A DNA stretch of 64,000 bases. Source: Plazaster borealis (taxonomy: Eukaryota; Echinodermata; Asteroidea; Forcipulatida; Labidiasteridae). The notes beneath the pieces were generated by a model, which made no database searches, was not told the origin of the DNA, and saw nothing but the letters and a program-made list of their open reading frames with translations. Positions within the stretch are counted from its first letter, which is position 1. The number at the start of each line of letters is the position of its first letter. Positions 13,635 to 57,050 of this stretch are shown piece by piece. The stretch spans positions 2,449,001 to 2,513,000 of the forward strand of contig CM037475.1 of NCBI GenBank assembly GCA_021014325.1. Direction: 5' to 3'. The translations under genes and the position numbers were made by a program.

Positions 13635-14641
13635 GTTACATAACTCCTGAACCACACATTGGATATTTACAATCCATACATCACCTGAAAGGTCTTAATA
13701 CACCTAACACGCGCTACACAAAGTGTGACCCTGTTTGACCTTGAATTCCGGTTCAAACCGGAAAGAGATATTTAATATTTAAAACAATCTTAACTTTTGC
13801 ACAACTCATTCGATTTTTACAATTTATTCATCATTGGGAAAGTATGTAACAATTTTAGAAACTATATACAGAATGTGACCTTTACTTACTGTTTAAACCG
13901 GAAGATGAAATTTAATATTTGAAAAAATCAGAACTCCTGAACCACACACTGGATTTTTATCATCTATACATCATTAGAAAGGGCTCCAAAGATTTAAGAA
14001 ACGCTACACACTGTGACCTCATTTGACCTTGACGTCGGGTTCAAACCGGAAAGTGAAAGTTAATGTATCAACAAAATGTAACTTCTAAACAACACATTGG
14101 ATTTTTACAATCTATACATTATTGGGAAAGTATGTAACAACTTAAGAAACAATACACAGAATGTAACTTCATTTGACCTTGACTTCCCGTTCAAACCGGA
14201 AGATGAAATTGAATACTTGAAAAAATCATAACTCCTGTACCACACAATGAATTTTTACAATCTTTACATCATTAGAAAGGTCTTTAAAATTTCAACAAGC
14301 GCTACACAAAATGTGACTCTTTAGACCTTGACTTTCGGTTCAAATTGGAAGTTGAAGTTTAATATCTTAACCAATCATCACTTCTTAATCAGACATTGGT
14401 TTTTAAAATGTATACATCATTGTTAAGGTCTTCAAAAAGTCAACAAACGCTGCACAAAGTGTGAACCCATTTAACCTTGACTTCCAGTTCAAACCGGAAG
14501 TTGAATTTTTATAAATCTAACTCCTGAACCAGACGTTGGGTTGATAAGGTAACTTGTCGACACCAAATCATTCACTCATAATTTGATGACATTACTCTCG
14601 AACACCTTGTTTTTGTAACCAACAAAAACTGAATCTCTAGT
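13635..14641 (+). mobile_element. Helitron-like copy H1, 5'-truncated, with about six 150-bp satellite units
   Basis: Six units (period 140-150) each contain TAACTCCTGAACCACACATT, GGATTTTTACAATC, an ACATCAT box, GCTACACAAAGTGTGACC and the palindromic pair ACTTCCGGTTCA/AACCGGAAGT preceded by TTTGACCTTG. The copy ends CGAACACCTTGTTTTTGTAA, CCAACAAAAACTGAATCT, CTAGT. The GTTTTTGT/ACAAAAAC hairpin followed 7 bases later by CTAG fits a Helitron 3' end. No Rep/helicase gene is present, so it would be non-autonomous. A close relative lies at 62,245-63,272. Confidence 0.65.
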
Positions 14642-14663
14642 TTCATATTAAATTTAACTCTTC

Positions 14664-14812
14664 GTCGGTCTCGACCGTCGGATTGACGGATGTTTTAAAA
14701 TATGTTTTCTAGTCTCGAACGTCGGATTTACAGAGGTTTGAAAAGATGTTGAAGTCTCGTTTGTCGTCCGGATTTACAGACGTTTGAAAAGATGTTTTGT
14801 AGTCTCGACCGT
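14664..14812. repeat. Three-unit tandem repeat, 45-60 bp
   Basis: TAGTCTCGACCGTCGGATT and ACAGACGTTTGAAAAGATGT alternate three times with small indels. Not seen elsewhere in the window. Confidence 0.65.
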
Positions 14813-14819
14813 TTTAATT

Positions 14820-15597: not shown

Positions 15598-15950
15598 TTA
15601 GGTGTTCGGGCAATCCCCCCGGAACACCTCTTGTTTTTGTTCGTTTTTTTTGTTTTTATTTTTTTTACGTGTTCGGGCAATCCGCCCGGAACACCTCTTG
15701 TTTTTGTTCGTTTTTTCTTCTTTTTTCTAAGGTGTTTGGGCAATCCGCCCGGAACACCTCTTGTTTTTGTTCGTTTTGTTTTTTGTTTTTTAGGTGTTCG
15801 GGCAGTCCGCCCAGAACACCTCTTGTTTTTGTTCGTTTTTATTTGTTTTTTTAGGTGTTCGGGCAATCCGCCCGGAACACCTCTTGTTTTTGTTCGGGGT
15901 TTTTTAGGTGTTCGGGCATTAAGCCCGAACAACTCTTTGTTATTGTTCGG
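15598..15950 (+). repeat. Hairpin minisatellite, six units (array A)
   Basis: Unit of about 60 bp: AGGTGTTCGGGC, loop AATCC, GCCCGGAACACCT, then CTTGTTTTTGTTCG and a T run. The last unit is GGGCATTAAGCCC with AACAACTC. Each unit folds into a 12-bp stem, usually with one bulged G. It lies at the 5' side of the next Helitron-like copy. It produces long but meaningless open frames on both strands. Confidence 0.85.
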
Positions 15951-17827
15951 TTTTTTTTTTACTTATTTGTTTTGCTTATTCTTCTGATAGTCGTTGGTCC
16001 GCAAAAAAACCACACTTGCAAACCTTTGATCAACTTGAAACTTAATGTGACGTTAGAAAATAACAAACAGATTGTGTGAGCAATAACGTCATAATGACGT
16101 CATCGGGTGTCAAGTTACAAGCAATTTTAGGTCAAAAAGTGCCCTCATGCCAATGCCTGTCTCTGAATATTACAGCTATGGTATTTATATTTGTGCATAT
16201 GATAGATCAAGACACGGGCAACATTTGAAAAGTTAACGCCAAATTCACATGACCTTTACTTCCGGTCGTACTGAAGGGTCAAAGTTTGCCTTTGTGTAAT
16301 TCTTTAAAAATAACTTTCCCGGCAAAAACATTAACTTCTGTATATCAGATCGACTTCAAATTTACACCATGTTAGGACCTTGATAAAACCTCCATCAAGT
16401 AGTTGTGACGTCATGATGACGTCATCAAGTGTTAAAATACAATAAATCAAAGTTTAATCCTCTAAAAATTCATAACTCAAGAAGTACAAAAGCTATTCTA
16501 ACAATCTGCACATCATCGGAGAGGTCTTGAAAAATTAAGCAAATACTACACAGAGTCGTATACCGTTTGACCTCGCTTCCTGTTCAAACCGGAAGTTGAA
16601 AAGTTCACAATTCATACTTTAAGAAATATTTATACATTTTACAAACACCTTACTCACAATTTTAACATCAGGTTGTATGTCCTTAAGTCCTCTCAAACTT
16701 TTCCACAGACATGTTACCTATTTGACCTTAACTTCCGGTTGAAATCCGGTATCGAATGACTCGTTCTATAAATTAAATTGTGTGTGAAAAGAATTGCACT
16801 GAAAACACATACAACGCGCTACAGTGTTGGGAGCGTTCCGGGTGTTATCACGTGTTGCATACATGCGAGTAGCGTGATTAGTTATGCACACATATTATAG
16901 AACAGTCTGTCATGCGCAGTAGTTAACACATTAAATGTGTGTAAGTAATAGGCCCAGGTTTTCACCCCATAGGTTTAGAGTAAAACCCGAAGAATAGGTC
17001 ATATCAAAACTTACTTGTTAACAAGCAACGGAGAGCTGTTGATAGTATAATACTTTGTAGGAAACGACTCCCTCTGAAGTAACGTAGTTTTTGAGAAAGA
17101 GGTAATTTCTCACTAAATAATAAAAACTTCTTGCAAGAAGTTTTTATTCCTATCTGAAAGCACACAAATTTGTACAACAAGAGTGTTTTTTCTTTCATCA
17201 TTTTCTTGCAACTTCGATGACCAATTGAGCCCAAATTTTCACAGGCTTGTATTTTTATGCATAATGTTGGGATACACCAAGTGAGAACACTGGTCTTTGA
17301 CAATTTCCAAACGTGTTCAGTGCCTTTAAAGGTGCAGTTTAACTTGATCTATCTAAAGTTTAATATTTCGAAAAATCATATCTTGAGAAATATATCTACT
17401 ATGATTTTAAGCTTTGCATTTGTTGTGAATGTATTATGTATGAAAGTTCTGTATAATTGATAATGACATGATTTGACCTGGCTTCCTGTCCAACCGGAAG
17501 TAAAAGAAATTTACATTAAGAGGCTCTTTTGTGAATTGTCAGTAAAAGTCTTGTATACAGTACAGTTTATGAATATTTACATGAAAACTGTCACAGATGT
17601 TCAATTAATACACGTTCTAGAGCTCAAGCAGTCTTAAGTAGGAACGTTAGCATTTATTTTCCGTGTAAACTAAAAGTATACACGTAATTGATTTACACTT
17701 TGCAATTTCACAAGCTATCAACAATCTTTTCATCGACTCAATAAAATAGTTCACACATTGACACAACACTGACCCCGATGAAATCCGAACACCTTGTGTT
17801 TGTTCCAACAAACACTAAATCTCTAGT
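15951..17827 (+). mobile_element. Helitron-like copy H2, with a MITE inserted
   Basis: Opens with a T-rich lead and GATAGTCGTTGGTCCGC. It carries two CRE-type blocks (AATGACGTCATCGG near 16,095, GATGACGTCATCAAG near 16,415), ETS-like pairs near 16,590 and 16,735, and ends ATCCGAACACCTTGTG, TTTGTTCCAACAAACA, CTAAATCTCTAGT. The family A MITE at 17,004-17,329 interrupts it. The stretch before that insertion matches 45,625-46,019. Confidence 0.65.
17004..17329. mobile_element. MITE family A, copy 4, left end missing
   Basis: Starts within the family at ACTTACTTGTTAACAAGC and ends CGTGTTCAGTGCCTTTAA. Left flank AAACCCGAAGAATAGGTCAT is the same as at 46,000-46,019, where this element is absent. 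Right flank AGGTGCAGTTTAACTTGATC matches 46,427. The insertion therefore also removed or replaced about 400 bp relative to that copy. Confidence 0.8.
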
Positions 17828-17922
17828 TAGGTGTTCGGGCATTAAGCCCGAACAACTCCTTGTTAGGTGTGAGTGCAATATGTGCACGAACACCTCTTGA
17901 TTTTGTTCTGTTTTTTTTTCTT
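17828..17922 (+). repeat. Hairpin minisatellite, two units (array B)
   Basis: Directly follows CTAGTT. Unit 1 is AGGTGTTCGGGCATTAAGCC with CGAACAACTC. Unit 2 is AGGTGTGAGTGCAATATGTG with CACGAACACCT. The inner stem changed from GGGC/GCCC to GTGC/GCAC. Confidence 0.8.
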
Positions 17923-19408
17923 CTCCATCTTCTTCCGCGGAACTCTTCTCTACAACATAACTCAAGATTGAAACTGAATTGAACCTTGAAACTCATCAGA
18001 CATTTGAACCTTAATATAAAGACGGCACAATAGTCTTGACGTAATGATGACGTCATCAGGTGTCGAATTACAAGGTTTTTAAAGTTGAAAAATGACCATT
18101 TGGTATTTGCTGTATCTCATTGAATATGAAAGCTAAGATGTTCATAATTGGGCATGTGATAGATCAAGACTGGGGCTACATTTCAAAAGTTATCGTCAAA
18201 ATCGTATGACCCCTTTCTTCAAGGTCATGCCCCTAGGTCAAAGTTTGCCTTTGTTTTTTTTCTTGAAAAACATAATTTTCGGGCTTATCTACGGCATAAC
18301 TCAAGATTGAAATTGAATTTTACATTGAAACTCATCAGACATTTGAACCTAAATATCAAGACGACACAAACTTGATGATGTCATGATGACGTCATCAGGT
18401 ATTGAATTACATTAAATCAAAGTTTAATATTTGAAAAAAATCATAACTCATGAACGACATGTTGGATTTTTACAATCTATACATCATCGGAAAGTTCGTT
18501 AAAGGTCCAACAGACGCTGCACAGAAAGTGACCCCATTTGACCTTGACGTCCGGTTCAACCCGGAAATTTAAAATTTCACAAAATTTGTATCTCAAAAAC
18601 TATTTATCATTTCAGCATAATTTTTGCATCAGGTTGTAGAACGTTGAGCCTGCTCAAATTTTTGCACAGAAATAACAACATTTTGACATTTACATCTTGT
18701 CTTATAACCACCGGCATTAAAGCGCACGTTTGTGTTGACCCACTTTGATAACGCGAGATAGTGTAATAGCACGTGTACAGATACGACTACATTGAACGTG
18801 TAGTTCGGTTTACATCAACTACATGTAGGAATACATTTAGCATCGCTGTTACCTTGTGTATTGCGCACCGCGGCATAAAGATAATCCATCTAATACTTGA
18901 AAAATTCGTAACTCCTGAACCACACATTGGATTTTTACAATCTATACATCATCTGAAAGGTCTTTATAAAACCTAACATACGCTACACTTATTGTGACCC
19001 CGTTTGACCCTGACTTCCGGTTCAAAGCGGAAGTTGAAATTTAATGTTTCAAAATTCATAATTCCTGAACCACACGATGGATTTTTACAATCTGTACATC
19101 ATTGGACAAGTATTTAACAACTTAACAAACGATATACAGAATGTGACCCCAATTGACCTTTACTTCCTGTTCAAACCGGAAGATGAAATTTAATATTTGA
19201 AAAAATCAGAACTCCTGAACCACACATCGGTTTTTTATCATCTATACATCATCAGTAAGTGCTCCAAAGATTTAAGAAACGCTACACACTGTGACCTCAT
19301 TTGACCTTGACTTCCGGTTCAAACCGGAATATGAAAGTAAATGTTCCAACAAATTGTTGGAGGTTTACAATCCATACATCATCTAAATCATCTTCATAAC
19401 TTTTTTTT
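17923..19408 (+). mobile_element. Helitron-like copy H3, 3' end missing
   Basis: 5' lead TTCTTCTCCATCTTCTTCCG, CRE blocks near 18,045 and 18,385, ETS-like pairs near 18,550, then three 150-bp satellite units near 18,900-19,400. No CTAG terminus is seen before the next minisatellite, so the 3' end was lost. A close relative is 23,891-25,592. Confidence 0.6.
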
Positions 19409-19626
19409 AGGTGTTCGTGCAATACAAGCACGAACACCTCTTGTTTTTGTTCTGTTTTTTTTTTAGGTGTTCGTGCAATATGAGCACGAACACCTCTTGT
19501 TATTGTTCTGGTTTTTTTTTTTTAGGTGTTCGTGCAATATGAGCACGAACACCTCTTTGTTATTGTTCCGGTTTTTTTTAAGTGTTCGTGCAATATGAGC
19601 ACGAACACCTCTTTGTTATTGTTCCG
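19409..19626 (+). repeat. Hairpin minisatellite, four units (array C)
   Basis: Units of about 55 bp: AGGTGTTCGTGCAATATGAG then CACGAACACCTCTTTGTT and a T run. All four units use the GTGC/GCAC inner stem, so this array is homogenised separately from arrays A and E. Confidence 0.85.
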
Positions 19627-21764
19627 TTTTTTTTTTTGGTTTTTTTTTTCTTTCTTCTCCTTCTTCTTCTTCCACTCAACTCATCTCTGGATCATAACTC
19701 AAGATTGAAACTGAATTGAACCTTGAAACTCATCAGATAATTGAACCTTAATAAGAAGACGGCACAGTTGTCATTACGTCATGATGACGTCATCAGGTGT
19801 TGAATTACAGGGTTTTTAAAGTTGAAAAATGACCTTTTGCTTTTTGCTGTATCTCAACGAATATGAAAGCTATGATGTTCAAAGTTTTTGCATCTGATAG
19901 ACCAAGGTTGGGGCAACATTTGAAAAGTTAACGCCGAAATTGTACGACCCTAGCTTCCGGGTCGTTACCCTGGGTCGAAGTTCACCTTCGTTTTTCGTCA
20001 AAAACAACTTTCGAGCTTATCTACGGAATAACTCAAGATTGAGATTGAATTGAATATTAAAACTCAATAGATAGTTGAACTTCAGTATCGAGACAACACA
20101 TACTTAATTACGTCATGATGACGTCATCGGGCATTAAATTACAATAAGTCAAAGTTTAATATTTGTAAAAATCATAACGCAAAAACTATAATTCGGATTT
20201 TGGCAATCTACACATCATCGGATAGGTCGTCAAAAGTTTGACAAACGCTTCACAAAACCCGTACAATATTTTAACTTATTTTTGGTTCAAAACGGAAGTT
20301 TAAAATTTCGTAATATCTTATCGTATTCATATCTTTAAAACTACTGATCATTTCAGCATAATTTTTGTATCAGATTGTAGAACAGCAATCCCTCTTAAAC
20401 TTTTGCACAGAGATAACAACATTTTAACCTTGAACATCTTGTCAAAAGCGGACAACGATGGGCACCTTCCCACTCGTACCCCCCTCCACTTTAATTGACA
20501 AAGCATTATGTACCCATAACGTTAAAACTCATGCAAGCTACAGTTCACGCACTGACTGTGTGTACTGTCGCCGTCCTTGTTTGTTAGATGTGGCAGCGGC
20601 AAACAACATAATCAACAGCGCCCTCTTTCGTTGAATATTAAATAAACAGCGCTGATAATAGAATCGTTTTGGGGGGCTTATCTACGAAATAACTCAAGAT
20701 TAAAATTGAATTGAACATTGAAACTCATAGGATAGTTGAACCTCAGTATCAAGACAACACAAACTTAATGACGTCTTGATGACGTCATCGGGCATCGAAT
20801 TATAATAAATCAAAATTTTATATTTGTAAAATTCATAATTGACAAAGCATTACGTACCCATAACGTTGAAACTCATGCAAGCTACAGTTCCTGCGCTGAC
20901 TGTGTGTACTGTCGCCGTCCTTGTTTGTTAGATCTGGCAGCGGCAAACAAAATATTTCAACAGCGCCCTCTTTCGTTGAATAAACAGCGCTGATAATAGA
21001 ATCGTTTTGGGGGCTTATCTACGAAATAACTCAAGATTGAAATTGAATTTAACATTGAAACTCATAGGATAGTTGAACCTTAGTATCAAGACAACACAAA
21101 CTTAATGACGTCTTAATGACGTCATCGGGCATCGAATTATAATAAATCAAAATTTATCGTTATAAAATTCATAACTCGGGAACCATTTATTTGATTTTTA
21201 CTATCTACACATCATCGGATAGCTCATTTAAAGTTCGACGAACGCTACACAACACCTTACACTCTTTGACCTTGACTTCCGGTAATATCTTATCTTATTA
21301 ATTATCTTTAAAACTACTGAACATTTCACGTTCCCAACAACATATATAATTTTCATGGCCAGAAACTTCTTTAAATAAAAGTACTTGACTAAAAGAAAAT
21401 CCGGCCCACGTAAAACTCCTTAAGGTTGGGACCACAATGGTCCCAGATGTTCGAATACGCGTGAGACTTGCACAGTCTATAAGTAACAACGTCTTGCACC
21501 AACACTACCATATCAGCTGCATTCATGATCAATGTAAAAAAACCTAAACCATCTAAAAGGTAGTCAAAAACTAATCACGCGCTATAAAAAATGTGACCCT
21601 ATTTGACCTTGACTTCCGGTCAAAACCGGAAGTTGATGTTTAATTTTTGAAAAATTCATAACTCCTGAACCAGGAATTGGATTGATAAGGTATAATGACC
21701 TATTCATTCAATCACTCACCACGAACACCGTGTTTTTGTAGTAGACAAAAACTCAAGGTCTAGT
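19627..21764 (+). mobile_element. Helitron-like copy H4
   Basis: Starts with TTTCTTCTTCTCC-type lead, contains CRE blocks near 19,780, 20,112, 20,775 and 21,115, and ends CACGAACACCGTGTTTTTGT, AGTAGACAAAAACTCAAGGT, CTAGT. It is about 2.1 kb and almost identical to H5 (offset 2,126-2,128 bp). An internal direct duplication of 344 bp starts at 20,493 and 20,837. Confidence 0.7.
20493..21165 (+). repeat. 344-bp internal tandem duplication inside H4
   Basis: Two successive copies start AATTGACAAAGCATTA and share GACTGTGTGTACTGTCGCCG and CAGCGCTGATAATAGAATCG. The same pair occurs at the equivalent place in H5 (about 22,623 and 22,962), so the internal duplication predates the H4/H5 duplication. 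Confidence 0.8.
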
Positions 21765-23890
21765 TTTTTTTTCGTTTTTTTCTTCTTCTTCTTCTTCTTC
21801 CACTCAACTCATCTCTGGATCATAACTCAAGATTGAAACTGAATTGAACCTTGAAACTCATCAGATAATTGAACCTTAATAAGAAGACGGCACAGTTGTC
21901 ATTACGTCATGATGACGTCATCAGGTGTTGAATTACAGGGTTTTTAAAGTTGAAAAATGACCTTTTGCTTTTTGCTGTATCTCAACGAATATGAAAGCTA
22001 TGATGTTCAAAGTTTTTGCATCTGATAGACCAAGGTGGGGGCAACATTTGAAAAGTTAACGCCGAAATTGTACGACCCTAGCTTCCGGGTCGTTACCCTG
22101 GGTCGAAGTTCACCTTCGTTTTTTTCGTCAAAAAACAACTTTCGAGCTTATCTACGGAATAACTCAAGATTGAGATTGAATTGAATATTAAAACTCAATA
22201 GATAGTTGAACTTCAGTATCGAGACAACACATACTTAATTACGTCATGATGACGTCATCGGGCATTAAATTACAATAAATCAAAGTTTAATATTTGTAAA
22301 AATCAAAACGCAAAAACTATAATTCGGATTTTGGCAATCTACACATCATCGGATAGGTCGTCAAAAGTTTGACAAACGCTTCACAAAACCCGTAAAATAT
22401 TTTAACTTACTTTTGGTTCAAAACGGAAGTTTAAAATTTCGTAATATCTTATCGTATTCATTTCTTTAAAACTACTGATCATTTCAGCATAATTTTTGTA
22501 TCAGATTGTAGAACAGCAATCCCTCTTAAACTTTTGCACAGAGATAACAACATTTTAACCTTGAACATCTTGTCAAAAGCGGACAACGATGGGCACCTTC
22601 CCACTCGTACCCCCCTCCACTTTAATTGACAAAGCATTATGTACCCATAACGTTAAAACTCATGCAAGCTACAGTTCACGCGCTGACTGTGTGTACTGTC
22701 GCCGTCCTTGTTTGTTAGATGTGGCAGCGGCAAACAACATAATCAACAGCGCCCTCTTTCGTTGAATAAACAGCGCTGATAATAGAATCGTTTTGGGGGG
22801 CTTATCTACGAAATAACTCAAGATTGAAATTGAATTGAACATTGAAACTCATAGGATAGTTGAACCTCAGTATCAAGAAAACACAAACTTAATGACGTCT
22901 TGATGACGTCATCGGGCATCGAATTATAATAAATCAAAATTTTATATTTGTAAAATTCATAATTGACAAAGCATTATGTACCCATAACGTTGAAACTCAT
23001 GCAAGCTACAGTTCCTGCGCTGACTGTGTGTACTGTCGCCGTCCTTGTTTGTTAGATCTGGCAGCGGCAAACAAAATATTTCAACAGCGCCCTCTTTCGT
23101 TGAATAAACAGCGCTGATAATAGAATCGTTTTGGGGGGCTTATCTACGAAATAACTCAAGATTGAAATTGAATTTAACATTGAAACTCATAGGATAGTTG
23201 AACCTTAGTATCAAGACAACACAGACTTAATGACGTCTTAATGACGTCATCGGGCATCGAATTATAATAAATCAAAATTTATCGTTGTAAAATTCATAAC
23301 TCGGGAACCATTTATTTGATTTTTACTATCTACACATCATCGGATAGCTCATTTAAAGTTCGACGAACGCTACACAACACCTTACACTCTTTGACCTTGA
23401 CTTCCGGTAATATCTTATCTTATTAATTATCTTTAAAACTACTGAACATTTCACGTTCCCAACAACGTATATAATTTTCATGGCCAGAAACTTCTTTAAA
23501 TAAAAGTACTTGACTAAAAGAAAATCCGGCCCACGTAAAACTCCTTAAGGTTGGGACCACAATGGTCCCAGATGTTCGAATACGCGTGAGACTTGCACAG
23601 TCTATAAGTAACAACGTCTTGCACCAACACTACCATATCAGCTGCATTCATGATCAATGTAAAAAAAACCTAAACCATCTAAAAGGTAGTCAAAAACTAA
23701 TCACGCGCTATAAAAAATGTGACCCTATTTGACCTTGACTTCCAGTCAAAACCGGAAGTTGATGTTTAATTTTTGAAAAATTCATAACTCCTGAACCAGG
23801 AATTGGATTGATAAGGTATAATGACCTATTCATTCAATCACTCACCACGAACACCGTGTTTTTGTAGTAGACAAAAACTCAAGGTCTAGT
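21765..23890 (+). mobile_element. Helitron-like copy H5, near-identical to H4
   Basis: Follows the CTAGT of H4 directly with a TTC-rich lead. It aligns with H4 along its whole length with a handful of substitutions and single-base indels by eye, and ends with the same hairpin and CTAGT. A 63-codon minus-strand frame conserved between them (21,298-21,489 and 23,423-23,614) reflects the recent copying and is not taken as a gene. Confidence 0.7.
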
Positions 23891-25592
23891 TTTTTTCTTC
23901 TTCATCTTCTTCTTCCGGGGAACTCTTCTCCAGAACAGAACTCAAAATAGAAATTTAATTGAACCTTGAAACTTGGCATATACTTGAACCTTAACATGAG
24001 CACGGCACTTGCACAATTTCGTCATGATGACGTCATCAGTTGTCGAATTACAAGGTTTTTAAAGTTGAAAAAATGATCATTTGGTATTTGCTGTATCTCA
24101 TTGAATATAAAAGCTATGATGTTCATAATTGGGCATGTGATAGATCAAGACTGGAGCTACATTTCAAAAGTTAACGTTAAAATCGTATGACCTTTTCTTC
24201 AAGGTCAAGCCCTAGGTCAAAATTTGCCTTTGTTTTTTTTCTTGAAAAACATCATTTTCGGGCGTATCTACGGCATAACTCAAGATTGAAATTGAATTTT
24301 ACATTGAAACTCATCAGAAATTTGAACCTGAATATCAAAACGACACAAACATGATGATGTCATGATGACGTAATCAGGTATTGAATTACATTAAATCAAA
24401 GTTTAATATTTGAAAAAAAATCATAACTCATGAACGACATGTTGGATTTTTACAATCTATACATCATCGGAAAGTTCGTTAAAGGTTCAACAAACGCTAC
24501 ACAGAAAGTGACCCCATTTGACCTTGACTTCCGGTTCAACCCAGAAATTTAAAATTTCATAATATTCGTATCTCAAAAACCACTTATCATGTCAGCATAA
24601 TTTTTGCATCAGGTTGTAGAAAGTTGAGCCTGCTCAAACTTTTGCACAGAAATAACAACATTTTGACATTTACATCTTGTCTTATAACCACCGGCATTAA
24701 AGCGCACGTTTGTGTTGACCCACTTTGATAACGCGAGATACTGTTATAGCGCGTGTACAACAGAAACATGCATTTTGAACGTGTAGTTCAGTTTACATCA
24801 ACTACATGTAGGAATACATTTAGCATCGCTGGATGTTACCTTGTATATTGCGCACCCCGGCATAAAGATAATCCATGTAGTACTTGAAAAATTCGTAACT
24901 CCTGAACCACACATTGGATTTTTACAATCTATACATCATCTGAAAGGTCTTTATAAAACCTAACATACGCTACACTTATTGTGACCCCGTTTGACCCTGA
25001 CTTCCGGTCAAAGCGGAAGTTGAAATTTAATGTTTCAAAATTCATAATTCCTGAACCACACGATGGATTTTTACAATCTATACATCATTGGACAAGTAAG
25101 TAACAACTTATACAGTATGTGACCCCAATTGACCTTTACTTCCTGTTCAAACCGGAAGATGAAATTTAATATTTGAAAAAATCAGAACTCCTGAACCACA
25201 CATTGGATTTTTATCATCTATACATCATCAGAAAGGGCTCCAAAGATTTAAGAAACGCTACACACTGTGACCTCATTTGACATTGACTTCCGGTGCAAAA
25301 CGGAATTTGAAACTTTATAGTTGAAAAAATCATAACTTCTGAACCAAATATTGGATGTTTACAATCCATCCATCATCTAAAAGGTCTTCATAAACTAATC
25401 CCGCCTACACAAAATGTGACCCTACTTGACCTTGACCTCTGGTCCAAACTGGAAGTTGATGTATATGTTTTGTAAAATTCATAACTCTTGAACCAGGCAT
25501 TGGATTGATAATGTTAAATGTCGTTACGTATTCAATCAATCGCTCACCACGAACACCTTGTTTTTGTAGTAAACAAAAACTCAATGTCTAGT
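23891..25592 (+). mobile_element. Helitron-like copy H6
   Basis: Lead TTCTTCTTCATCTTCTTC, CRE blocks near 24,022 and 24,362 (the second changed to GACGTAATCA), ETS-like pair near 24,530, 150-bp satellite units from about 24,895, and end CACGAACACCTTGTTTTTGT, AGTAAACAAAAACTCAATGT, CTAGT. Parallel in content to H3. Confidence 0.7.
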
Positions 25593-31019: not shown

Positions 31020-32689
<1,670 letters not shown>

Positions 32690-45304: not shown

Positions 45305-46928
45305 TAGTTTTTATTATTTTTCGGAATCTCGTTTGTCCGCAAGCAAACGCATAGTTGCAAAATTTATATTAACTTGAAACTTTACATGTAGGTAGACCAT
45401 AACTTGTAGATGATTCTAAAAGTTGTTACGTCATGGTGACGTCATCAGTTTTTGAAAAACAATAAATCAAAGTTTATTATTTCAAAAAATCATAACTCAA
45501 GAATTATAGAAGCTATTTCAACAATCTATAAATCATCGGATAGGTCTGGCAAAATGTAGCAAACGCCACGCAGAGTGTGACCCCATTGGACCTCAGCTTC
45601 CTGTTTAAACCGGAAGTTGAAAAGTTCACAATTCATACTTTAAGAAATATTCATACATTTTACAAACACCTTACTCACAATTTTAACATCAGGTTGTATG
45701 TCCTTAAGTCCTCTCAAACCTTTCCACAGACATGTTACCTATTTGACCTTAACTTCCGGTTGAAATCCGGTATCGAATGACTCTTAAATTAAATTGCGTG
45801 TGAAAAGAATTGCACTGAAAACACATACAACGCGCTATAGTGTTGAGATCGTTCCGGGTGTTATCACATGTTGCATACATGCGAGTAGCGTGATCTAATT
45901 AGTTATGCACACAAATAGAACAGTCTGTCATGCGCAGTTGTTAACACATTTAATGTGTGCAAGTAATAGGCCCAGGTTTTCACCCCATATGTTTAGAGTA
46001 AAACCCGAAGAATAGGTCATTGGAGCAAAGTGGAACGTTGACGGTCGGTTCTACAACTTGCTCTGTGAGCTTTGTAGAAGATTGACGTCATCAAAAATTA
46101 ATATCGCCGTGGATCGCGTGAAATACAAGATGCAGAAATACAAGATTGATAAAATGCAGGAAAAATGTGGAATCAAGCTGAAACCTTGCATGTATTCAAG
46201 TTAGGATGTGTTACATCTAGAATTTAATGTCGCATTACGATGACGTCATCAAGCTTTACGTGAGTCGACTTAAAGGTGCACTTTTCATAGATGTATGTTT
46301 ACGGCAAAAATGCGCGATTAAAGCTATAACCTTGCATGTGTTCAAGCCGGGATTTGTAACATCCAAAATTTAAGATCCTGTTCAAATGACGCCATCAATT
46401 GTCATATAATTATGAAGTCACCTTAAAGGTGCAGTTAAACTTGATCTATTTAAACTTTATTATTTCGAAAAATCATATCTTGAGAAATATATCTATTATG
46501 ATTTTAAGCTTTGCATTTTTTTGTGAATGTTTTTACGTGCTTAAGTTCTGTACAATTGATAATGACATGATTTGACCTGGCTTCCTGTCCAACCGGAAGT
46601 AAAATAAATATATATTAAGAGGCTCTTTTTTGAATTGTCAGTAAAAGTCTTGTATACAGTACAGTTTATGAATATTTACATGAACATTGAAACAGAATGT
46701 TCAATAAATACACGTTCTAGAGCTCAATGCAGTCTTACGTAGGAACGTTAGCATTTATTTCCCGTGTAAACTAAATGTATACACGTAATTGATTTACACT
46801 TTGAAATTTCAAAAGCTATCAGCAATTTTTTCATCGACTCAATAAAATATTTCACACATTGACACAACACTGACCCCAATGAAATCCGAACACCTAGTGT
46901 TTGTTCCAACAAACACTAAAGCTCTAGT
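45305..46928 (+). mobile_element. Helitron-like copy H11
   Basis: Lead AGTTTTTATTATTTTTCGG and CGTTTGTCCGCAAGC, CRE block GGTGACGTCATCAG near 45,433, a part homologous to H2 without its MITE, CRE near 46,242, and end ATCCGAACACCTAGTGTTTG, TTCCAACAAACACTAAAGCT, CTAG. The next copy begins at once with TCTTAATACTTC. Confidence 0.7.
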
Positions 46929-49171
46929 CTTAATACTTCTTCTGCGTCTCCCCGTCGTGTTTCCGCTAACAAAAGCACACTTCCCAAGCACATATAAACT
47001 TGAAACTTTACATATTACATATAGTTAGATATCTATTAGGAGATGAAACCGCTTCAGTTACGTCATGATGACGTCATGAGGTATTGAAATACATTAAATC
47101 AAAGCTTAATATTTGAAAAAATCATAACTCAAGAACCCCATTTTGGATTTGTACAATCTATACATCATCGGAAAGGGCATTGAACACTGAACAATAAATA
47201 CATTGAGTGTGACCCCGTTTGACCCCGACTTCTGGTTTAAATCGGAAGTTGAACATTTCAAAAATTCATAATCTCAGCCAATACCTAGCGCACAGTGTGG
47301 CATCCACTTAACAACTAATCCAGGATGACGTGCACACATAGCCATACATTGTGCAAAAGGCATCTTCCATACGTTGTGAAAATTTTGAAAGTCCATTGAA
47401 CATCATTGCGTTGTTTATTCTTGTACGTATTAACAACACGTTGTCGCGAACATACAATCTCAAACTCATTCAAAGTTCAGTGTGAATTTATTTATGTTTT
47501 GCCCGTCTGATGCCTTAATTGAAAATAAGGAATAGAAGAGGAGGTTTCACTGAGATGTCCACCTGCTTTAGAGATTTGTATGACTTTAAATAACTGACAA
47601 ATAGCTAAACCAAAAAAGAACGACATTGATTCGCTTCTCATCAAACACCGAGACCCACATTACGTTGATCGACGTGACAATGCCTGCCAAAAGCTCTTTA
47701 GGCCCGCTGAGTTTACCCTTCAGACATGGTGATTACACTGCGGTAAGCTTTATTTCAAAATCATCGTTAAAAAAGAGGGGGCATTCTTTTTTTCGTCTAC
47801 AATCATGTTGATATGTTTCATCCGTAAACTTGCCAAGTGGTATTTTTTTTTAACTTACAAAAGAGTTTATTAATTTGATCATGGTATGAATTCTAACTGT
47901 CGGATTTGAATTGATGCTAACCGTTGAGGTATTTGTAGCCTACATGTACTGTGTGGCAAAAATCTTATCGCGTGAATCAAAAGGGTTTTGACTTTAACGA
48001 AGTACTTGAACGAGAGCAAAGAATAAGTAATATTTGCTGAAATTAATTTACAAGTGGTCATAGATCCAGACATACGGTTCACATCCTATAATGTTTTTTT
48101 TTAAGTACCACGAAAAAATAATTTTAGCTGATGATATCATTCTCCAGTGGAAAAATCACAAACTTGAACTAATAAACTTAAAAATGTATGTTTATGACTT
48201 GTTAACAATACTATACAGCATCAGTTGTTTGCCAACCGTTCAGATGGTGTACATTTTCTTTAAGATTGAACACAGATGCCTGTACGGAACAACAAATAAC
48301 TTGTCAAGATTTTAAAGTATATTGAGAATAAAAATTGTATACAATTGTCAAAAACTAGCATTGCCTCCATTTGTCTATGATTCGGATATATTCCCCGTAG
48401 CCCTACACCCACCAACGGCACACAGAATGATGGCATATTACCCAAGCACACAAGAAACTTTGTTAGTTAACTAAATTTGTTTGCAAACTATCGAATTCCC
48501 ATCCACAAACAACGGTGTCCTAGTTGTTTATGTTAGAAGCTAACTCCTAGTCTTAAGCTAACTCCCACTTAATGACGTCACATGGAAGCGCACCGCAAAC
48601 GGCAGAAGTGTTTTTATTTTTTCAAAACCTTGAAGTTGGGGCCTAATTTTTGATTGATAATTACGAAAATCCAGAAGTGTATAAAACACATCCAAATTAC
48701 AATTAAATGACAAACAAACACATTATAAACAAGTTTAAATAGCATCCCCGTTCAAAAATTCTCCCTCAAGTACCTGTTTGAACTAACCATGTACTTAGAC
48801 CGTAGTGTGTCAATGAAACCGCAAAGGTTTTGGGGATGATGACGTCATCGATAACGTCATAACATTAAATCAATGTTTAATAATTGAAAACAAATCTTAT
48901 CTGAAGAACCATAATTGCTACACACAAGATCTTTGGACCATGTGAAAGACCCTGTAGTATTTTTTAAATCTTACACAAAGTTTGACCCCTGTGACCTTTA
49001 CTTCCGTTTAATTGTTTTTATTTTATGGTTTTTTTTATAGTTTTTTTTTACAAAACTCGCAAAAGTACTGAGTATACAGTGCTTCAAACAGATCGGGAAA
49101 GGGTTAAAACCAAATTATAAAAACAAACCGAACACTGTTTGTTTGTAATTTACAAACAAGATAAGTCTAGT
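46929..49171 (+). mobile_element. Helitron-like copy H12, type A
   Basis: Begins TCTTAATACTTCTTCTGCG directly after CTAG, the cleanest junction in the window. CRE near 47,063, captured segment to 47,741, 74-codon frame, CRE near 48,840, end ACCGAACACTGTTTGTTTGT, AATTTACAAACAAGATAAGT, CTAGT. Confidence 0.72.
47640..47741 (+). other. Captured exon-like segment, copy 3
   Basis: Reads TLIDVTMPAKSSLG, PLSLPFRHGDYTA up to GCG|GTAAGC with no stop before the donor. Substitutions against copies 2 and 4 are mixed silent and replacement. Confidence 0.55.
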
Positions 49172-49177
49172 TCTTAA

Positions 49178-49208
<31 letters not shown>

Positions 49209-49907
49209 CCCCGTCGCGTTTCCGCTAACTAAACCTTTGTTCAGTTATAAAATCCTTGGGTATTGAGTTTTTACAACTTCACAAGCGCTACACAGAGTGT
49301 GGCCCCATTTGAACTGGACTTCCGGTTCAAACCGAAAGATGAACTTTTACATTTCATTTTGTTTTCTTTTTTTTCTTAATACTTCTTCTTCTTCTTCTCC
49401 CCGTTGTTTTCCGCTAACAAAAGCACACTTCTCAAGCACATATAGACTTGAAACTTCACAAACTTCACATATAGGTTTTCGGGATGGTGACGTCATCAAT
49501 GATGTTATAACATTAAATCAATGTTTAATATTTAGAAAAATCATATCTGGAGAACCATAATTGCTAAACACAAGATCTTTGCACCGTGTGAAGGACCCTG
49601 GAGTATTATTAAAATCTTACACAAAGTGTGATCCCTGTGACCTTCACTGCCGTTTTTTTAATACTTCTTCTTTTTCTTCATATCCCCGCGAGTTTTCGCT
49701 AATTGGACAAGTCTACCAATCACATTCTTTTTGTTACAACAAAAAGTTAAGTCTAGTTTATGGTTTTTTTTTTAGTTTTTTTTTTTACAAAACTCGCAAA
49801 AGTACTGAGTATACAGTGCTTCAAACAGATCGGGAAGGGTTAAAACCAAATTATAAAAACAAACCGAACACTGTTTGTTTGTAATTTACAAACAAGATAA
49901 GTCTAGT
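49172..49907 (+). mobile_element. Compound of short Helitron-like pieces (H13-H14)
   Basis: Contains 5' starts at about 49,171, 49,373 and 49,655 and 3' ends at 49,757 and 49,907. The piece 49,655-49,757 has a TTAATACTTCTTC start and a TTTTTGTTACAACAAAAAG hairpin with CTAGT only about 100 bases apart. The whole block is repeated at 51,176-51,842. Confidence 0.6.
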
Positions 49908-49916
49908 TTTTCTTAA

Positions 49917-49948
<32 letters not shown>

Positions 49949-51696
49949 CTTCTCCCCGTCGCGTTTCCGCTAACAAAAGCACACTTCCCAAGCACATATA
50001 AACTTGAAACTTCACATATAGTTAGATATCTATTAGGAGAAGAAACCGCTTTAGTTACGTCATGATGACGTCATCAGGTGTTGAATTACGTTAAATCAAA
50101 GTTTAATATTTGAAAAAAATCGTAACTCTTGAACCACCCAGTGGATTTTCACAATCTATACATCATCGGAAAGGCCTTTGCAAACTCAAAAAAACGCTAC
50201 ACAGAGTGTGACCCCATTTGACCTTGACTTTCGATTCAAACCGGAAGTTGAAAATTCAAAAAATCATATCTCAAGAACTACTTATACTTTAGTCACAATT
50301 TTTACATCAGGTTATATGCTGTTCTTCCTCCGCAAACTTTTCCACAAAAATGTTACCTTTTTTACCTTCACTTATGGTTGAAATCGGGTATACATTGACC
50401 CGCTGTCAAACCGCGGGAATAAAACTGCACTGAAAACACACACAATACGCGATCTAAACCAGTTAGAGGGTGAGCGGCTGCTTGCTCCATTCAATCAACC
50501 GCAAGGTTCAAAGTCCTTCAAACATGCTTGTAGTCTAGTCTCTTTTCAAGGTTCGCGCAACCTGATTTTGACATTACGCGTTGTTAGTCTCTAAAACAGC
50601 CGTCCGTGCAAACCTCGCTAACAATCAAATGTCAGATTTTTTAAAAATTCATAATTCAAGAACAACACAACCGATTTTCAAACTTTTTTCAGTTATAAAA
50701 TCCTTGGGCATTGGAGATTAGCCTTGGGTAACCGTGACCCCATGTTGACCTTTATTTCCGGGTCAACCGGAAATGGGACCATATCTCAAGAACTACACAA
50801 CCGATTTCAAACTTTTTCAGTTATAGACTCCTTGGGCATTGGAGATTAGCCTTGGGTAACTGTGACCCCATGTTGACCTTTACTTCCGGGTCAACCGGAA
50901 GAGGGATCATATCTCAAGAACTACGCAACCGATTTTCAAACTGTTTTCAGTTATAGACTCCTTGGGGCGTGACCCCATGTTGACATTTACTTCCGGATCA
51001 ACCGGAAGTGACACCATATCTCGAGAACTACAACCGATTTTCAAACTTTTTTCAGTTATAGACTCCTTGGGCATTGGAGATTAGCCTTGGGTACCGTGAC
51101 CCCATGTTGACATTTACTTCCGGATCAACCGGAAGTGAGACCATATCTCAAGAACTACAACCGATTTTCAAACTTTGTCCAGTTATAAAATCCTTGGGTA
51201 TTGAGTTTTTACAACTTCACAAGCGCTACACAGAGTGTGGCCCCATTTGAACTGGACTTCCGGTTCAAACCGAAAGATGAACTTTTACATTTCATTTTGT
51301 TTTCTTTTTTTTCTTAATACTTCTTCTTCTTCTTCTCCCCGTTGCTTTTCCGCTAACAAAAGCACACTTCTCAAGCACATATAGACTTGAAACTTCACAA
51401 ACTTCACATATAGGTTTTCGGGATGGTGACGTCATCAATGATGTTATAACATTAAATCAATGTTTAATATTTAGAAAAATCATATCTGGAGAACCATAAT
51501 TGCTAAACACAAGATCTTTGCACCGTGTGAAGGACCCTGGAGTATTATTAAAATCTTACACAAAGTGTGATCCCTGTGACCTTCACTGCCGTTTTTTTAA
51601 TACTTCTTCTTTTTCTTCATATCCCCGCGAGTTTTCGCTAATTGGACAAGTCTACCAATCACATTCTTTTTGTTACAACAAAAAGTTAAGTCTAGT
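49908..51696 (+). mobile_element. Helitron-like copy H15, type B variant
   Basis: Lead TCTTAATACTTCTTC with a long CTT run, CRE near 50,065, ETS-like pair, about five 130-bp satellite units (50,640-51,180), then the second copy of the compound block ending TTGTTACAACAAAAAGTTAA, GTCTAGT. Confidence 0.62.
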
Positions 51697-51842
51697 TTAT
51701 GGTTTTTTAAATTTTTTTTTTACAAAACTCGCAAAAGTACTGAGTATACAGTGCTTCAAACAGATCGGGAAGGGTTAAAACTAACTTATAAAAACAAACC
51801 GAACACTGTTTGTTTGTAATTTACAAACAAGATAAGTCTAGT
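51697..51842 (+). mobile_element. Helitron-like 3' remnant (H16)
   Basis: About 146 bp with GTACTGAGTATACAGTGCTT and the 3' end GAACACTGTTTGTTTGTAAT, TTACAAACAAGATAAGT, CTAGT. Matches 49,758-49,907. Confidence 0.6.
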
Positions 51843-54308
51843 TCTTAATACTTCTTCTTCCTCTTCTCCCCGTCGCTTTTCCGTTAACAAAAGCACACTT
51901 CCCAAGCACATATAAGCTTGAAACTTCACATAGAGTTAAATATTTATTAGGAGATGAAACCGCTTCAGTTACGTTATGATGACGTCATCAGGTGTCACAT
52001 TACGTTAAATCAAAGTTTAATATTTAAAAAAATCATAACTCATGAACCACGCAATGGATTTTCACAATCTATACATCATCGGAAAGACCTTTGGAAACTC
52101 AAAAAAAGCTACACAAAGTGTGACCCCATTTGACCTTGACTTCCGATTCAAACCGGAAGTTGAAAATTTCAAAAAATCATATCTCAAGAACTACTTATAC
52201 TTAAGTCACAATTTTTACATCAGGTTATATGTTGTTCTTCCTCCGCAAACTTTTCCACAGAAATGTTACCGATTTTTCCCTTACTTCCCGTAGAAATCGG
52301 ACGTTAACGCTCACGTATTAAACTATCCTGATCTTTTCAATAGAACGTGGCTGGCTGTGCGCTCCATTGATTACAAGGTCACCAAACCTGCATACTGACA
52401 TGCAGCCACGTATTGTGTGCAGGTTTAGACGTGTCAAAGTTCATTGAACGTCATTACGTTGTCGTTGTGTAGTACACACGTACAAATCTCAAATCTCAAA
52501 CTCATTCAAAGTTCAGCATGAATTTACTCCCGTTTTGCACGTCTGATGGCGTAGTGGAAACCAAGGAATATTAGAGGAGGCTTCACTGAGATGTCCACCT
52601 GCTCTAGTGGTTTGTATGGTTTTTAATAACTGACTAAAATTCAATCTGAAAAAAAGAACAACACTGTTCGCTTAAATGTCTCAAACACCGAGACCGTGTC
52701 ATGCTGATTGTCGTGACCATGCCGGCCAACGGCGTTCTAGGCCCGCTGAGTATGTCCTTCAGACACGGTGACCAAAATGGTAAGCTTTATTCCAATAGCA
52801 TTCATTCATTGATTAAAACGATAATTGTTTGTTCATTTGATGTCGGCCAACAAAGACACTTCCCAAGCTCACAAAGCCTTAAAACTTCGCACATAGTTAG
52901 CTCTTGACTAGTACAAGACACCGCTTTAATGACGTCATCAGTTGTCAAATTAAATTTGATTTACGTTTGATTTTAGAAAAAAACACCTCAAGAACCTCGC
53001 AATGGATTTTTAAATGGTATACATCATCAAAGAGGGCTTCAAAACATTATCAAATGCTAATGACCTTGTCTTCCGAACGAAACCGGAAATTGAAGTGAAG
53101 AAAATTATCCTGCGCCTCGTTTTGAGGTCTGCAAACAATATCATCGTAATTTTCGACATTTTCTCTCTGTAAGAAATAAAATTTGACCCCTTTTGAACCA
53201 AATATTATTAGGGGGAACAAAATAATGTTACTCTTTTTTAACAAAATGTTCAAGTGTTTAGCTGATGATAGCATTCTCCAGTTGAAAAATCACAAACTTG
53301 AACTAATAAACTTAAAAAATGTATTTTCATGACTTACAATACTATACAGCATCAGTTATTTGCCAACCGTTCAGATGGTGTACATACTTTAAGATTGAAC
53401 ACAGATGCCTGTACGGAACAACCAATAATTTGTCAAGATTTTGAAGTATAAGTTTAGAATAAAAATTGTTTTCAATTTTCCAAAACTAGCATTGCCTCCA
53501 TTTGTCTATGATTCGGATATATTCCCCGTAGGCCTACACCCGCCAACGGCACACGGGAGAATGCTGGCATATTATCCCAGCACAAAAAACTTTGTTAATT
53601 AACTTAATTTAATTTGTTTGCAAACTATCGAATTACCATCCACAAACCACGGTTTCCTTGTTGTTTACGTTAGAAGCTAACTCCTAGTCTTAAGCTAACT
53701 CCCACAAAAGACGTCACATGGAAGCGCACCGCAAACGGCAGAAGTGTTTTTCAAAAATTTGAGGTTTGGGGCCTAATTTTTTGATTGATAATTACGAAAA
53801 ATCCAGAAGCGTATAAAACACATCAAAATTACAATTAAATAACAAACAAACACATTATAAACAAGTTTAAAAAGCATCCCCGTTCAAAAATTCTCGCTCA
53901 AGTAACTGTTTGAACTAACCATGTACTTAGACCGTAGTGTGTCAATGAAACCGCAAAGGTTTTGGGGATGATGACGTCATCGATGACGTCATAACATTTA
54001 ATCAATGTTTAATATTGAAAAAAAACTTATCTGAAGAACCATAATTGCTACACACAAGATCTTTGAACCATGTGAAAGACCCTGTAGTATTTTTAAAATC
54101 TTACACAAAGTTTGACCCCCTGTGATGTTTACTTCCGTTTAATTGTTTTTAATTTATGTTTTTTTTAATTTTTTTTAATTTTTTTTTTACAAAACTCGCA
54201 AAAGTACTGAGTATACAGTGCTTCAAACAGATCGGGAAAGGGTTAAAACCAAATTATAAAAACAAACCGAACACCGTTTGTTTTTATTTACAAACAAGAT
54301 AAGTCAAG
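51843..54308 (+). mobile_element. Helitron-like copy H17, type A
   Basis: Begins TCTTAATACTTCTTCTTCCT as H9 does. CRE near 51,982, captured segment to 52,778, CRE near 52,928 and 53,970, end ACCGAACACCGTTTGTTTTT then CAAACAAGATAAGT and CAAGT. Shares the CAAG terminus with H9. Confidence 0.7.
52684..52778 (+). other. Captured exon-like segment, copy 4
   Basis: Reads LIVVTMPANGVLGPLSMSFR, HGDQN and then GGTAAGC, with no stop before the donor. Closest to copy 2. Confidence 0.55.
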
Positions 54309-56664
54309 TTTTTTTTACTTCTACTTCTTCTTTTTCTCGCCGGCGATTGTCCGCTAACAAAGACACACTTTCGAAGCTCACATAAACTTGAAACTTCACA
54401 CATAGTTAGATATTCATTAGTAGATGAAACCATTTTTAGTTTCGTCATGATGACGTTATCAGGTGTCAAATTACAAGCCATTTAAGGTGAAAAAGTGACC
54501 ATATGCGAATGCCTGTATGTCCCCGAATATTACAGCTACAGTATTTATATTTAAGCATATGATAGATCAAGACACTGGCAACATTTGAAAAGTTAAGGCC
54601 AAATTCACATGATCTTTACTTCCGGTCGTAACGAAAGGTCAAAGTTTGCCTTGGTGTCATTCTTCAAAAAAACACTTTCCCGGCAAAAACATTAACTTCT
54701 GTTTATCAGATCAACTTCAAATTTACACCATGTAAGGAACTTGATAAAACCTCAATGAAGTAGTTCTGACGTCATGATGACATCATCAAGTGTTGAAATA
54801 CAGTAAATCGAAGTTTAATCATTTAAAAATTCATAACTCAAGAAGTACATAAGCTATTATAACAATCTATACATCATCGGAGAGGTCTTGACAAATGTAG
54901 TAAATACTACACAGAGTCGTATACCCTTTGACCTTGTCTTCCTGTTTAAACTGGAAGTTGAAAACTTCATAATTCAAACTTTAAGGAATACTCGTACTTT
55001 TTACATACACATTACTCACAATTTTTACATCATGTTGTAGATTTTTAAGCCTTCTCAAACTTTTTCACAGAGATGTTACCTTTTTGACCTTCACTTATGG
55101 TTGAAATCGGGTATACATTGACCCGCTGTCAAACCGCGGGAACAAACTGCATTGAAAACACACACAATACGCGATATAAACCAGTTAGACGGTGAGCGGC
55201 TGCTTGCTCCATTGAATCAAACCGCAAGGTTCAAAGTCCTTCAAACATGCTTGTAGTCTAGTCTCTTTTCAAGGTTCAGGCACCTGATTTTGACATTACG
55301 CTTTGTTAGTCTCTAAAACAGCCGTCCGTGCAAACCTCGCTAACAATCAAATGTCAGATTTTTTAAAAATTCATAATTCAAGAACTACACAACCGATTTT
55401 CAAACTTTGTTCAGTTATAAAATCCTTGGGCATTGGAGATTAGCCTTGGGTAACCGTGACTCCATGTTGACCTTTACTTCCGGGTCAACCGGAAGTAAGA
55501 CCATATCTCAAGAACTACACAACCGATTTCAAACTTTTTTCAGTTATAGACTCCTTGGGCATTGGAGATTAGCCTTGGGTAACCGTGACCCCATGTTGAC
55601 CCTTACTTCCGGGTCAACCGGAAGTGGGACCATATCTCAAGAACTACACAACCGATTTTCAAACTGTTTTCAGTTATAGACTCCTTGGGCATTGGAGATT
55701 AGCTTTGGGTAACCGTGACCCCATGTTGACCTTTACTTCCGGGTCAACCGGAAGTAACACCATATCTCAAGAACTACTAAACCGATTTTCAAACTTGTTT
55801 CAGTTATAGACTCCTTGGGCATTGGAGATTAGCCTTGGGTAACCGTGACCCCATGTTGACCTTTCCTTTCAGGTCAACCGGAAGTGAGACCATATCTCAA
55901 GAACTACACAACCGATTTTCAAACTTTTTACAGTTATAGACTCCTTGGGCATTGGAGATTAGCCTTGGGTACCGTGACCCCATGTTGACCTTTACTTCCG
56001 GGTCAACCGAAAGTGACACCATATCTCAAGAACTACTCAACAGATTTTCAAACTGTTTTCAGGTATAGACTCCTTGGGCATTGGAGATTGGCCTTGGGTA
56101 ACCGTGACCCCTTGTGACCTTTACTTCCGGATCAACCGGAAGTGACACCATATCTCAAGAGCTACAGTTGGTTTTGTCGAAGCATGGTCATGGGACATGG
56201 ACTCGGACATGTTGGAGGTTCTGGTACTTTTTATGACTAGTGGTACTTACAGTTGAGATGTGTCGACGTTACGTGAACAGAGACTCATTCACTAACTTTT
56301 GATGAAAACTTATCGTCATGTTTACGAAATATTTTTCAATTACATTTAAGCAACTGCTAGTTCGTACAACAAGTATAAGCACAGAACAACTTTAGTAATC
56401 AAGCTGAAACTTTGCATGTATCCAAGTTGGGATATGTTACATCCAAAAAAGTGGTTCACACCACGATGACGTCGTCAAGAGTAACATGACATCACCTTGA
56501 AGGTGCAAGTTCAAAATCTATATAATGAGTAGGATACTTGGTCAAGCAAAAATGTAGCATGTCATTTCAAGCAAAACTATTTCAATGGAAGTTTAAACCC
56601 CTTCCAAACTTCCGAATCCGACCGAACATCTTATTTTTGTTATCAACAAAAAGTTAAGTCTAGT
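54309..56664 (+). mobile_element. Helitron-like copy H18, type B (130-bp satellite x6)
   Basis: Lead ACTTCTACTTCTTC, CRE-like blocks near 54,450 and 54,775 (both altered by one base), ETS-like pairs, satellite at 55,375-56,160, CRE near 56,466, and end GACCGAACATCTTATTTTTG, TTATCAACAAAAAGTTAAGT, CTAGT. Confidence 0.72.
55375..56165 (+). repeat. 130-bp satellite inside H18, six units
   Basis: Same unit as in H10, spaced 119-130 bp (55,434, 55,553, 55,683, 55,813, 55,943, 56,072). Four units fewer than H10 with nearly identical flanks. Confidence 0.92.
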
Positions 56665-57050
56665 ACTTCTTCTTCTTCTCCTTCTTCTTCTTCTTCTCAG
56701 TGTCCCTTGTCCGCTAACAAAAGCACCTTTCCCAAACTCGTATGAACTTGAAACTTCACACACAGTTAGATATTCATTAGGAGAAGAAACCGTTTGAGTT
56801 ACGTCATGATGACGTCAGTCTTTCTTGATTTATTAAAATTCAAAGTTTATAATTTCAAAAAATCATAACTTTTGATCTACAAAATGGTTTCTTACAATCG
56901 ACACATCATCGGAAAATTCGTTAAAAACTCCGTTAACGCCTCGCAGACATGACCCCATTTTGATCTCGTCTTCCGGTTCAATATCGAGGTTGAAAATTTG
57001 AAAATTCATATCTAAAGAACTCGTAATGCATAAAAAATAGAACGTACATG
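56665..57050 (+). mobile_element. Helitron-like copy H19, 5' part only
   Basis: Starts ACTTCTTCTTCTTCTCC after CTAGT, includes CCGCTAACAAAAGCACC, CRE block GATGACGTCAGTC near 56,803 and CGTCTTCCGGTTCAATATCG. It fades out before the CGGCCCCAGCGCCTGGCCGC foldback at 57,067 and has no 3' end. Confidence 0.55.

Follow-up and report, generated by a model that had tools for sequence, protein, structure and literature searches.

A 64-kb window of Plazaster borealis CM037475.1 (the window being the whole stretch analysed, to which all sequence results below refer) contains approximately 34 kb of non-coding Helitron-like elements within a 50-kb stretch, all reading in a single direction and most beginning at the end of their predecessor. 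Our preferred reading, to which we give an even chance, is that different families were repeatedly inserted beside resident copies, most likely at their 3′ ends, and that homologous exchange followed. By our own count, 14 of 18 3′ ends directly abut the next 5′ end (17823, 21760, 23886, 25588, 39175, 42205, 45300, 46924, 49167, 49903, 51838, 54305, 56660, and 63268); two (14637 and 31015) border DNA without array match, and two that are mutual copies (49753 and 51692) border a 5′-truncated remnant. Under random insertion, the single orientation has p = 2.4e-4 for 13 ends (five sister copies dropped), or p = 0.06 when counted over five groups only. The array occupies four blocks (13638-14640, 15600-31018, 38845-57050, and 62248-64000), which sum to 36.4 kb, or 33.6 kb minus a foldback repeat. 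An earlier sequence-only reading had described a 40-kb array in one orientation, but the tract does not run on without a break over 40 kb: it is interrupted by DNA in which no similarity to the array was found, at 14641-15590, 31019-38844 (which holds a long interspersed nuclear element, LINE), and 57051-62247, as well as by the foldback repeat at 26851-29646.

Each 3′ end consists of CGAACACC or a variant, a 7-10 bp hairpin (two eroded), and CTAG or CAAG. A covariance model made from an 18-sequence alignment of these ends, run on both strands with filters off, gave 18 + strand matches of 53.7-67.6 bits, with the next best match on either strand at 19.6 bits. The 18 matches are the model's own input sequences, and what the search adds is the lack of a further strong match and of any strong one in reverse: on the - strand, the best matches (at most 19.6 bits) are partial and coincide with these hairpins in the opposite sense, and no end-to-end match exceeds 16.1 bits (E 0.12). 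These results agree with the sequence-only reading, which had reported eighteen + strand ends with a common motif, hairpin, and CTAG, an eroded AACACC motif in two of them (located here at 49753 and 51692), and CAAG in place of CTAG in two (here 42205 and 54305). As in Helitron1, where CTRR follows a hairpin, 16 of the 18 ends carry CTAG. A looser scan, with a grammar taken from the ends themselves, found 16 matches on the + strand and one on the - strand (within the foldback repeat), compared with one match in 60 dinucleotide shuffles of the + strand; it omits 31015 and 54305 because their hairpins are damaged. In the hairpin alignment, whose rows comprise 14 distinct but related sequences, 97.3% of cells pair, versus 50-59% when one side is slid, and 11 cells differ on both sides; neither value was attained by any of 500 shuffles, nor was the covariation score (0/500). 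Two pairs (1 and 3 of 8) are changed on both sides, which is not unusual (attained by 435/500 shuffles), five of the eight are invariant, and the number of pair types was attained by 183/500 shuffles. Rfam (gathering threshold) and tRNA searches of the sequence gave no matches, and the pattern of one 3′ end sought in viral contigs gave none.

Comparison of related copies indicates where the elements stop and start (element names as in Table 1). The four copies of family C are 96-98% alike over the 100 bp preceding CTAG and 36-43% alike over the 40 bp following it, where chance gives 44%. B and B′ are 99.2% identical over 714 bp (708/714) up to CTAG and 74.2% identical past it, and the boundary comparison for family B gives 0.99 ahead of CTAG and 0.49 after. 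At the other side, the family A start at 39768 has an identity of 0.83 to that at 46928 from TC onward and 0.42 upstream, and of 0.92 to that at 51843 from TC onward and 0.40 upstream. Homology thus stops at CTAG in family C and starts at TC in the informative family A pairs, in line with the earlier placement of the boundaries; TC (in family A) and CTAG are true boundaries, and the elements are Helitron-like. Boundaries are less sharp at CTAG in F (0.98 to 0.60), E/E′ (1.00 to 0.60), the remnant (1.00 to 0.77), and family A (0.93-0.98 to 0.37-0.86), and the 5′ pair 49172/51843 is 1.00 alike upstream of TC and only 0.60 downstream, because the flanks in these pairs are of the same kind.

The direct CTAG-to-TC joint previously noticed at 46924 was confirmed as the sole exact CTAG|TCTTAATACTTC in the window, and the single T noted at several other joints is found at 49167, 51838, and 63268; overall, the spacers between CTAG and TC measure 0, 1, 1, 1, and 4 T. 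A T follows CTAG or CAAG in 18/18 ends (T makes up 31% of the window), in runs of 1-9 that all lie within or beside the array, which corresponds to the T-rich target with variable T of HINEs. The scan for TC starts, which allowed at most two mismatches, gave eight exact TCTTAATACTTC starts among the matches listed, with boundaries checked where upstream contexts differ; four + strand two-mismatch matches among those listed (7945, 13116, 13693, and 52877) were excluded because no CTT run follows, and elements lacking this start begin with T-runs or hairpin units. The base preceding TC was never A in 10 starts among the matches listed (two with one mismatch), being T in nine and G in one; the A-before-TC rule can hardly be assessed properly here because all 10 starts lie inside the array. 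The Helitron assignment of the sequence-only reading stands for the TC (family A) and CTAG boundaries, and its A|T part is not demonstrated, with T after 18/18 ends and A before 0/10 starts.

Neighbouring elements mostly belong to different families. By their last 300 bp, the elements sort into four groups (C; A; B; and F together with E and D′), a short remnant standing apart, so that adjacent pairs like B|C and C|A2 represent different insertions. Alignments across groups are mostly limited to the terminal 14-43 bp; of the two exceptions, the remnant ending at 39178 has 61-123 bp in common with F, E, and D′, and ~150 bp of the short remnant that ends at 49756/51695 are shared with A. Within the fourth group, F compared with E or D′ gives 55-60% over the last 100 bp (global) and 77-82% over 196-285 bp (local alignments). 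At the 5′ side, local alignments of the first 250 bp among 20 starts extend from less than 20 to ~250 bp, and nearly all elements having a 5′ part match others there by blastn (66-99%). Near-identical tandem units are confined to 19640-23889, where E and E′ are 99.2% identical (2101/2117, 16 gap columns), and to the block 49172-51841, where X1 and X2 are 99.1% identical (665/671); these units may equally stem from unequal exchange. Mosaics are also present: the first 800 bp of e2 are B-like and the rest is C-like, and X2 is A-like, then B-like. The 3′ terminus is absent in D, C′, and the first part of X2; tandem Helitrons with truncated inner copies have been described (PMC7492417; this and the other papers are cited here from excerpts). 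F (13638) and F′ (62248) cease to be similar at almost identical internal positions of the 148-bp repeat, beside unrelated DNA, a breakpoint that represents either a shared alternative 5′ end or a chance truncation.

An account of the observed termini, boundaries, adjacency, single orientation, mixed neighbours, and mosaics would run as follows. The tract would be a cluster of non-autonomous Helitron-like elements from several 3′ groups, mobilized in trans by a rolling-circle transposase able to recognize the common ~45-bp 3′ terminus (subterminal CGAACACC, hairpin, and CTAG). Time and again, newcomers would enter right beside a copy already in place, the 3′ terminus of that copy being the most likely point of entry; its CTAG|T would be cleaved, or would serve as target, and would be linked to the TC or T-rich 5′ end of the newcomer. 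Joints of the form CTAG|TC or CTAG-T-TC would be expected irrespective of family, and every copy would take the same direction because the proposed joining has one strand polarity. Later recombination of homologous parts would produce the near-identical tandem blocks and chimeric elements. We infer the resident 3′ end as the target and a Rep/helicase as the agent, and an autonomous transposase partner is expected elsewhere.

Several observations weigh against this account. A canonical insertion placed ahead of the 5′ end of a resident copy yields an identical CTAG|TC joint, and some joints in the near-identical tandem blocks could be produced by recombination alone. Elements with 5′ hairpin minisatellites have no TC at the joint, and two starts, each present as a duplicated pair (49374/51312 and 49656/51595), are located in T-runs at a distance from any CTAG. 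Moreover, no Pfam match above cut-off and no Rep/helicase domain was found in the 10 of 16 array open reading frames (at least 85 codons) that were scanned, the other six lying in minisatellites or the foldback repeat.

Among the alternatives, unequal crossing-over with gene conversion survives best, although we judge it unlikely: one or a few founders would have been multiplied in place through homologous 5′ modules and central repeats, a process that would preserve the single orientation and the apparent end-to-end joints. The identities of E/E′, the X block, and the last part of B (708/714), the mosaics e2 and X2, and the mutual 5′ matches all speak for such exchange, but the 3′ groups, which number four or more and have intact termini that match, are not derivable from one founder by recombination, and the identity of B and B′ drops just past CTAG. 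Most joints need separate insertions because most neighbours belong to different 3′ groups, and the history of the array calls for subsequent exchange in addition to the arrival of different families by insertion. A duplication of the A-B pair as a single composite, read through the damaged CAAG end, was also considered: the limits fit, but identity is uneven (94.9% in A, 81-99% in 100-bp tiles at the start of B, and 99.2% at its end), which makes exchange as likely as composite duplication.

Growth at the 5′ side by canonical insertion, in which each newcomer would enter at the A|T formed by the host A and the leftmost TC and only the outermost copy would keep the A, strikes us as improbable. 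It was named as an alternative for a maize pair (PMC2267711) and accounts for CTAG|TC without A at inner joints, where 3′-side and 5′-side insertion are indistinguishable because both yield the same joint; however, joints with one or four extra T fit it inexactly, and these spacers slightly favour insertion at the 3′ end. Among the matches listed, A|TC occurs at 0/10 starts, the left ends of the blocks having no TC start to test.

We give equally little credence to rolling-circle concatemers, in which the transposase would pass the terminator on a circle and insert multimers. The CTAG|TC at 46924 is the same as a circle joint, and E and E′ are adjacent with element-exact limits, but the 46924 joint connects two families (C and A2), and concatemers predict like beside like, whereas most neighbours differ. 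The earlier proposal of concatemers or repeated insertion is accordingly narrowed to separate insertions for most joints, with the E/E′ pair as a possible concatemer. Target polarity alone, by which insertion would occur between T and T in any T-run and the one-strand T-runs of the first minisatellite would have fixed the orientation, is also very doubtful, for although T follows every terminus, minisatellite stretches are bounded by T-rich DNA, and HINEs use T-rich sites with variable T number (PMC4067079), A-runs of at least 6 are not much rarer than T-runs (61 vs 87 in two array blocks) yet there are zero reverse termini, and 14/18 ends mark a joint rather than T-runs generally.

A second group of features recalls HINEs, whose plan comprises a 5′ subterminal inverted repeat (subTIR) with a complementary repeat, a microsatellite, central repeats, a 3′ subTIR, and a palindrome (PMC7492417; PMC4067079), and whose insertion sites are T-rich, the number of T varying (PMC4067079). 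Here, 25 hairpin units, not mentioned in the sequence-only reading, form minisatellites at six places, always ahead of a 5′ end; in order, the places have 6, 1, 4, 1, 10, and 3 units, the second with a deviating GTG-type unit in addition, and these stretches start and finish in T-rich DNA. Each unit is a 12-bp stem in which three of the 12 pairs alternate between standard forms (21 G-C/4 T-A; 22 G-C/3 A-T; 21 C-G/2 G-C) and 7/300 cells are broken, an uncontrolled fit with the best pairing picked per unit. The left arm is an inverted repeat of the 3′ subterminal motif, which lies 31-34 nt before the terminus, over 10 bp in e2, E, e7, and B; the unit of D, comparable against D′ only, gives 9 bp, and the first unit of A only 6 bp at another position. 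In random 64-nt windows of the same sequence, units and ends themselves included, 10 bp was attained in 114/20000. No hairpin unit was found in the remaining elements, many of which begin at TC or a T-run. Palindromes at the 3′ side, CTT runs at many 5′ ends, and 130- and 148-bp central repeats are all present, not all three in every element. As to whether the minisatellite was a pre-existing target in which elements landed, e2 and e7 agree in unit subtype and have related 5′ modules, which makes it more likely that the unit is part of the element, although family A occurs with and without units. It is a tentative and rather doubtful proposal that the resident CTAG|T is a preferred integration site to which any family adds one-way, that the elements, as a hybrid class, combine Helitron1 ends with HINE-type 5′ hairpins, and that the stem of the multiplied units is kept by paired changes.

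Comparable joints have been reported. In maize, two different Helitrons are joined CTAG|TC, which the authors read as consecutive insertion, the G/T joint arising at the resident 3′ end or, canonically, at A|T before the resident 5′ end; adjacent head-to-tail Helitrons of the bat Myotis are cited in the same paper (PMC2267711). Plant and bat head-to-tail joints and tandem Helitron arrays are cited in PMC5876387 and PMC5148889. Circles with exact CTAG-TC joints are Helitron intermediates (PMC4778049); in Helraiser, the 3′ hairpin is a termination signal, and CTAG is exactly joined to TC in circles. As in maize and bats, the CTAG of one element here meets the TC of a different element, and no A intervenes; the maize case involves two elements, whereas the present array has 14 joints, several families, and 5′ hairpin minisatellites. 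Tandem truncated Helitrons of plant centromeres, explained by a circular intermediate (cited in PMC5148889), likewise form tandem copies, unlike the mixed families and mostly intact 3′ ends found here. HINE/DINE-1 non-autonomous Helentrons resemble the present elements in their microsatellite, central tandem repeats, 3′ palindrome, and T-rich sites with variable T, and several copies here apparently also have their 3′ subTIR and their 5′ subTIR, complementary repeat included; whole HINEs may stand in tandem as well (PMC4067079; PMC7492417). The elements here differ in ending in CTAG, in starting with TC in several copies, and in having 5′ hairpin units that many copies lack and that number up to 10 where they are multiplied. 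Fusarium FoHeli, with multiple 5′ termini, also repeats a short 5′ terminal sequence before one element, but that sequence differs, and no long array is described in the excerpt (PMC5148889). In open-licence literature, no mixed-family array of this length with this end combination was found, which is weak evidence of newness; novelty is moderate because CTAG|TC joints are already published for maize and bats. A long mixed-family array could reveal how Helitron-like elements choose landing sites: both concatemers and consecutive insertion have been put forward for head-to-tail Helitrons, several families with a common terminus separate the two, and targeting of a resident end becomes directly testable. 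The combination of Helitron1 ends with HINE 5′ hairpins bears on the kinship of two rolling-circle lineages and on minisatellite seeding.

Table 1. Elements and hairpin minisatellites of the array in window coordinates.
Feature	Coordinates	Strand	Remarks
Element F	13638..14640	+	5′ part missing; 148-bp central repeats; CTAG end 14637
Hairpin minisatellite	15600..15959	+	6 units; HINE-like 5′ subTIR plus inverted repeat; adjoins DNA without window match
Element e2	15960..17826	+	Family-B-like 5′ part on family-C body and 3′ end; dispersed repeat ~17003-17300
Element D	17827..19399	+	5′ hairpin units; 3′ terminus lost
Hairpin minisatellite	19409..19639	+	4 units, GTG type
Element E	19640..21763	+	CTAG end 21760
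Element E′	21764..23889	+	Directly downstream of E; 99.2% identical to E
Element D′	23890..25591	+	CTAG end 25588
Element e7	25592..31018	+	One 5′ hairpin unit; family-C 3′ end; contains foldback repeat 26851-29646
Element remnant	38845..39178	+	Family-C 3′ end
Hairpin minisatellite	39194..39767	+	10 units
Element A	39768..42208	+	TCTTAATACTTC start; CAAG end 42205
Hairpin minisatellite	42214..42376	+	3 units
Element B	42377..45303	+	130-bp central repeats; CTAG end 45300
Element C	45304..46927	+	CTAG end 46924, joined directly to next TC
Element A2 (family A)	46928..49170	+	
Composite X1	49172..49906	+	Several 5′ starts; two CTAG ends (49753, 49903)
Composite X2	49911..51841	+	Related to X1 but longer; common part 99.1% identical (671 bases aligned)
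Element A′	51843..54308	+	CAAG end 54305
Element B′	54309..56663	+	CTAG end 56660; last 714 bp 99.2% identical to B
Element C′	56664..57050	+	5′ part only
Element F′	62248..63271	+	5′ part missing; CTAG end 63268
Element G	63273..64000	+	TCTTAATACTTC start; family-B-like; runs off window

Other DNA in the window includes the foldback repeat within e7, which is made of 39-bp units with CATGGTTTATAAACCATG palindromes and has inverted arms of ~1.2 kb (86% over 1234 aligned bases). The LINE at 33235-38208 has CCHC (zinc-knuckle), endonuclease, and reverse-transcriptase frames over several open reading frames, by which the window is eukaryotic; a 456-aa protein is 97% identical to the reverse-transcriptase frame over 39% of that frame. 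Just upstream of the LINE frames lies a perfect ATA microsatellite of 209 bp (32480-32688). A dispersed repeat of ~300 bp occurs at 569-829, 7266-7371, 11264-11544 (-), 12686-12985, and about 17003-17300, the other copies being 85-96% alike to the last, which interrupts the family-C body in e2; the repeat may resemble echinoderm DNA. Outside the Helitron tract, ~14 tandem copies of a 42-bp unit occupy 7538-8126.

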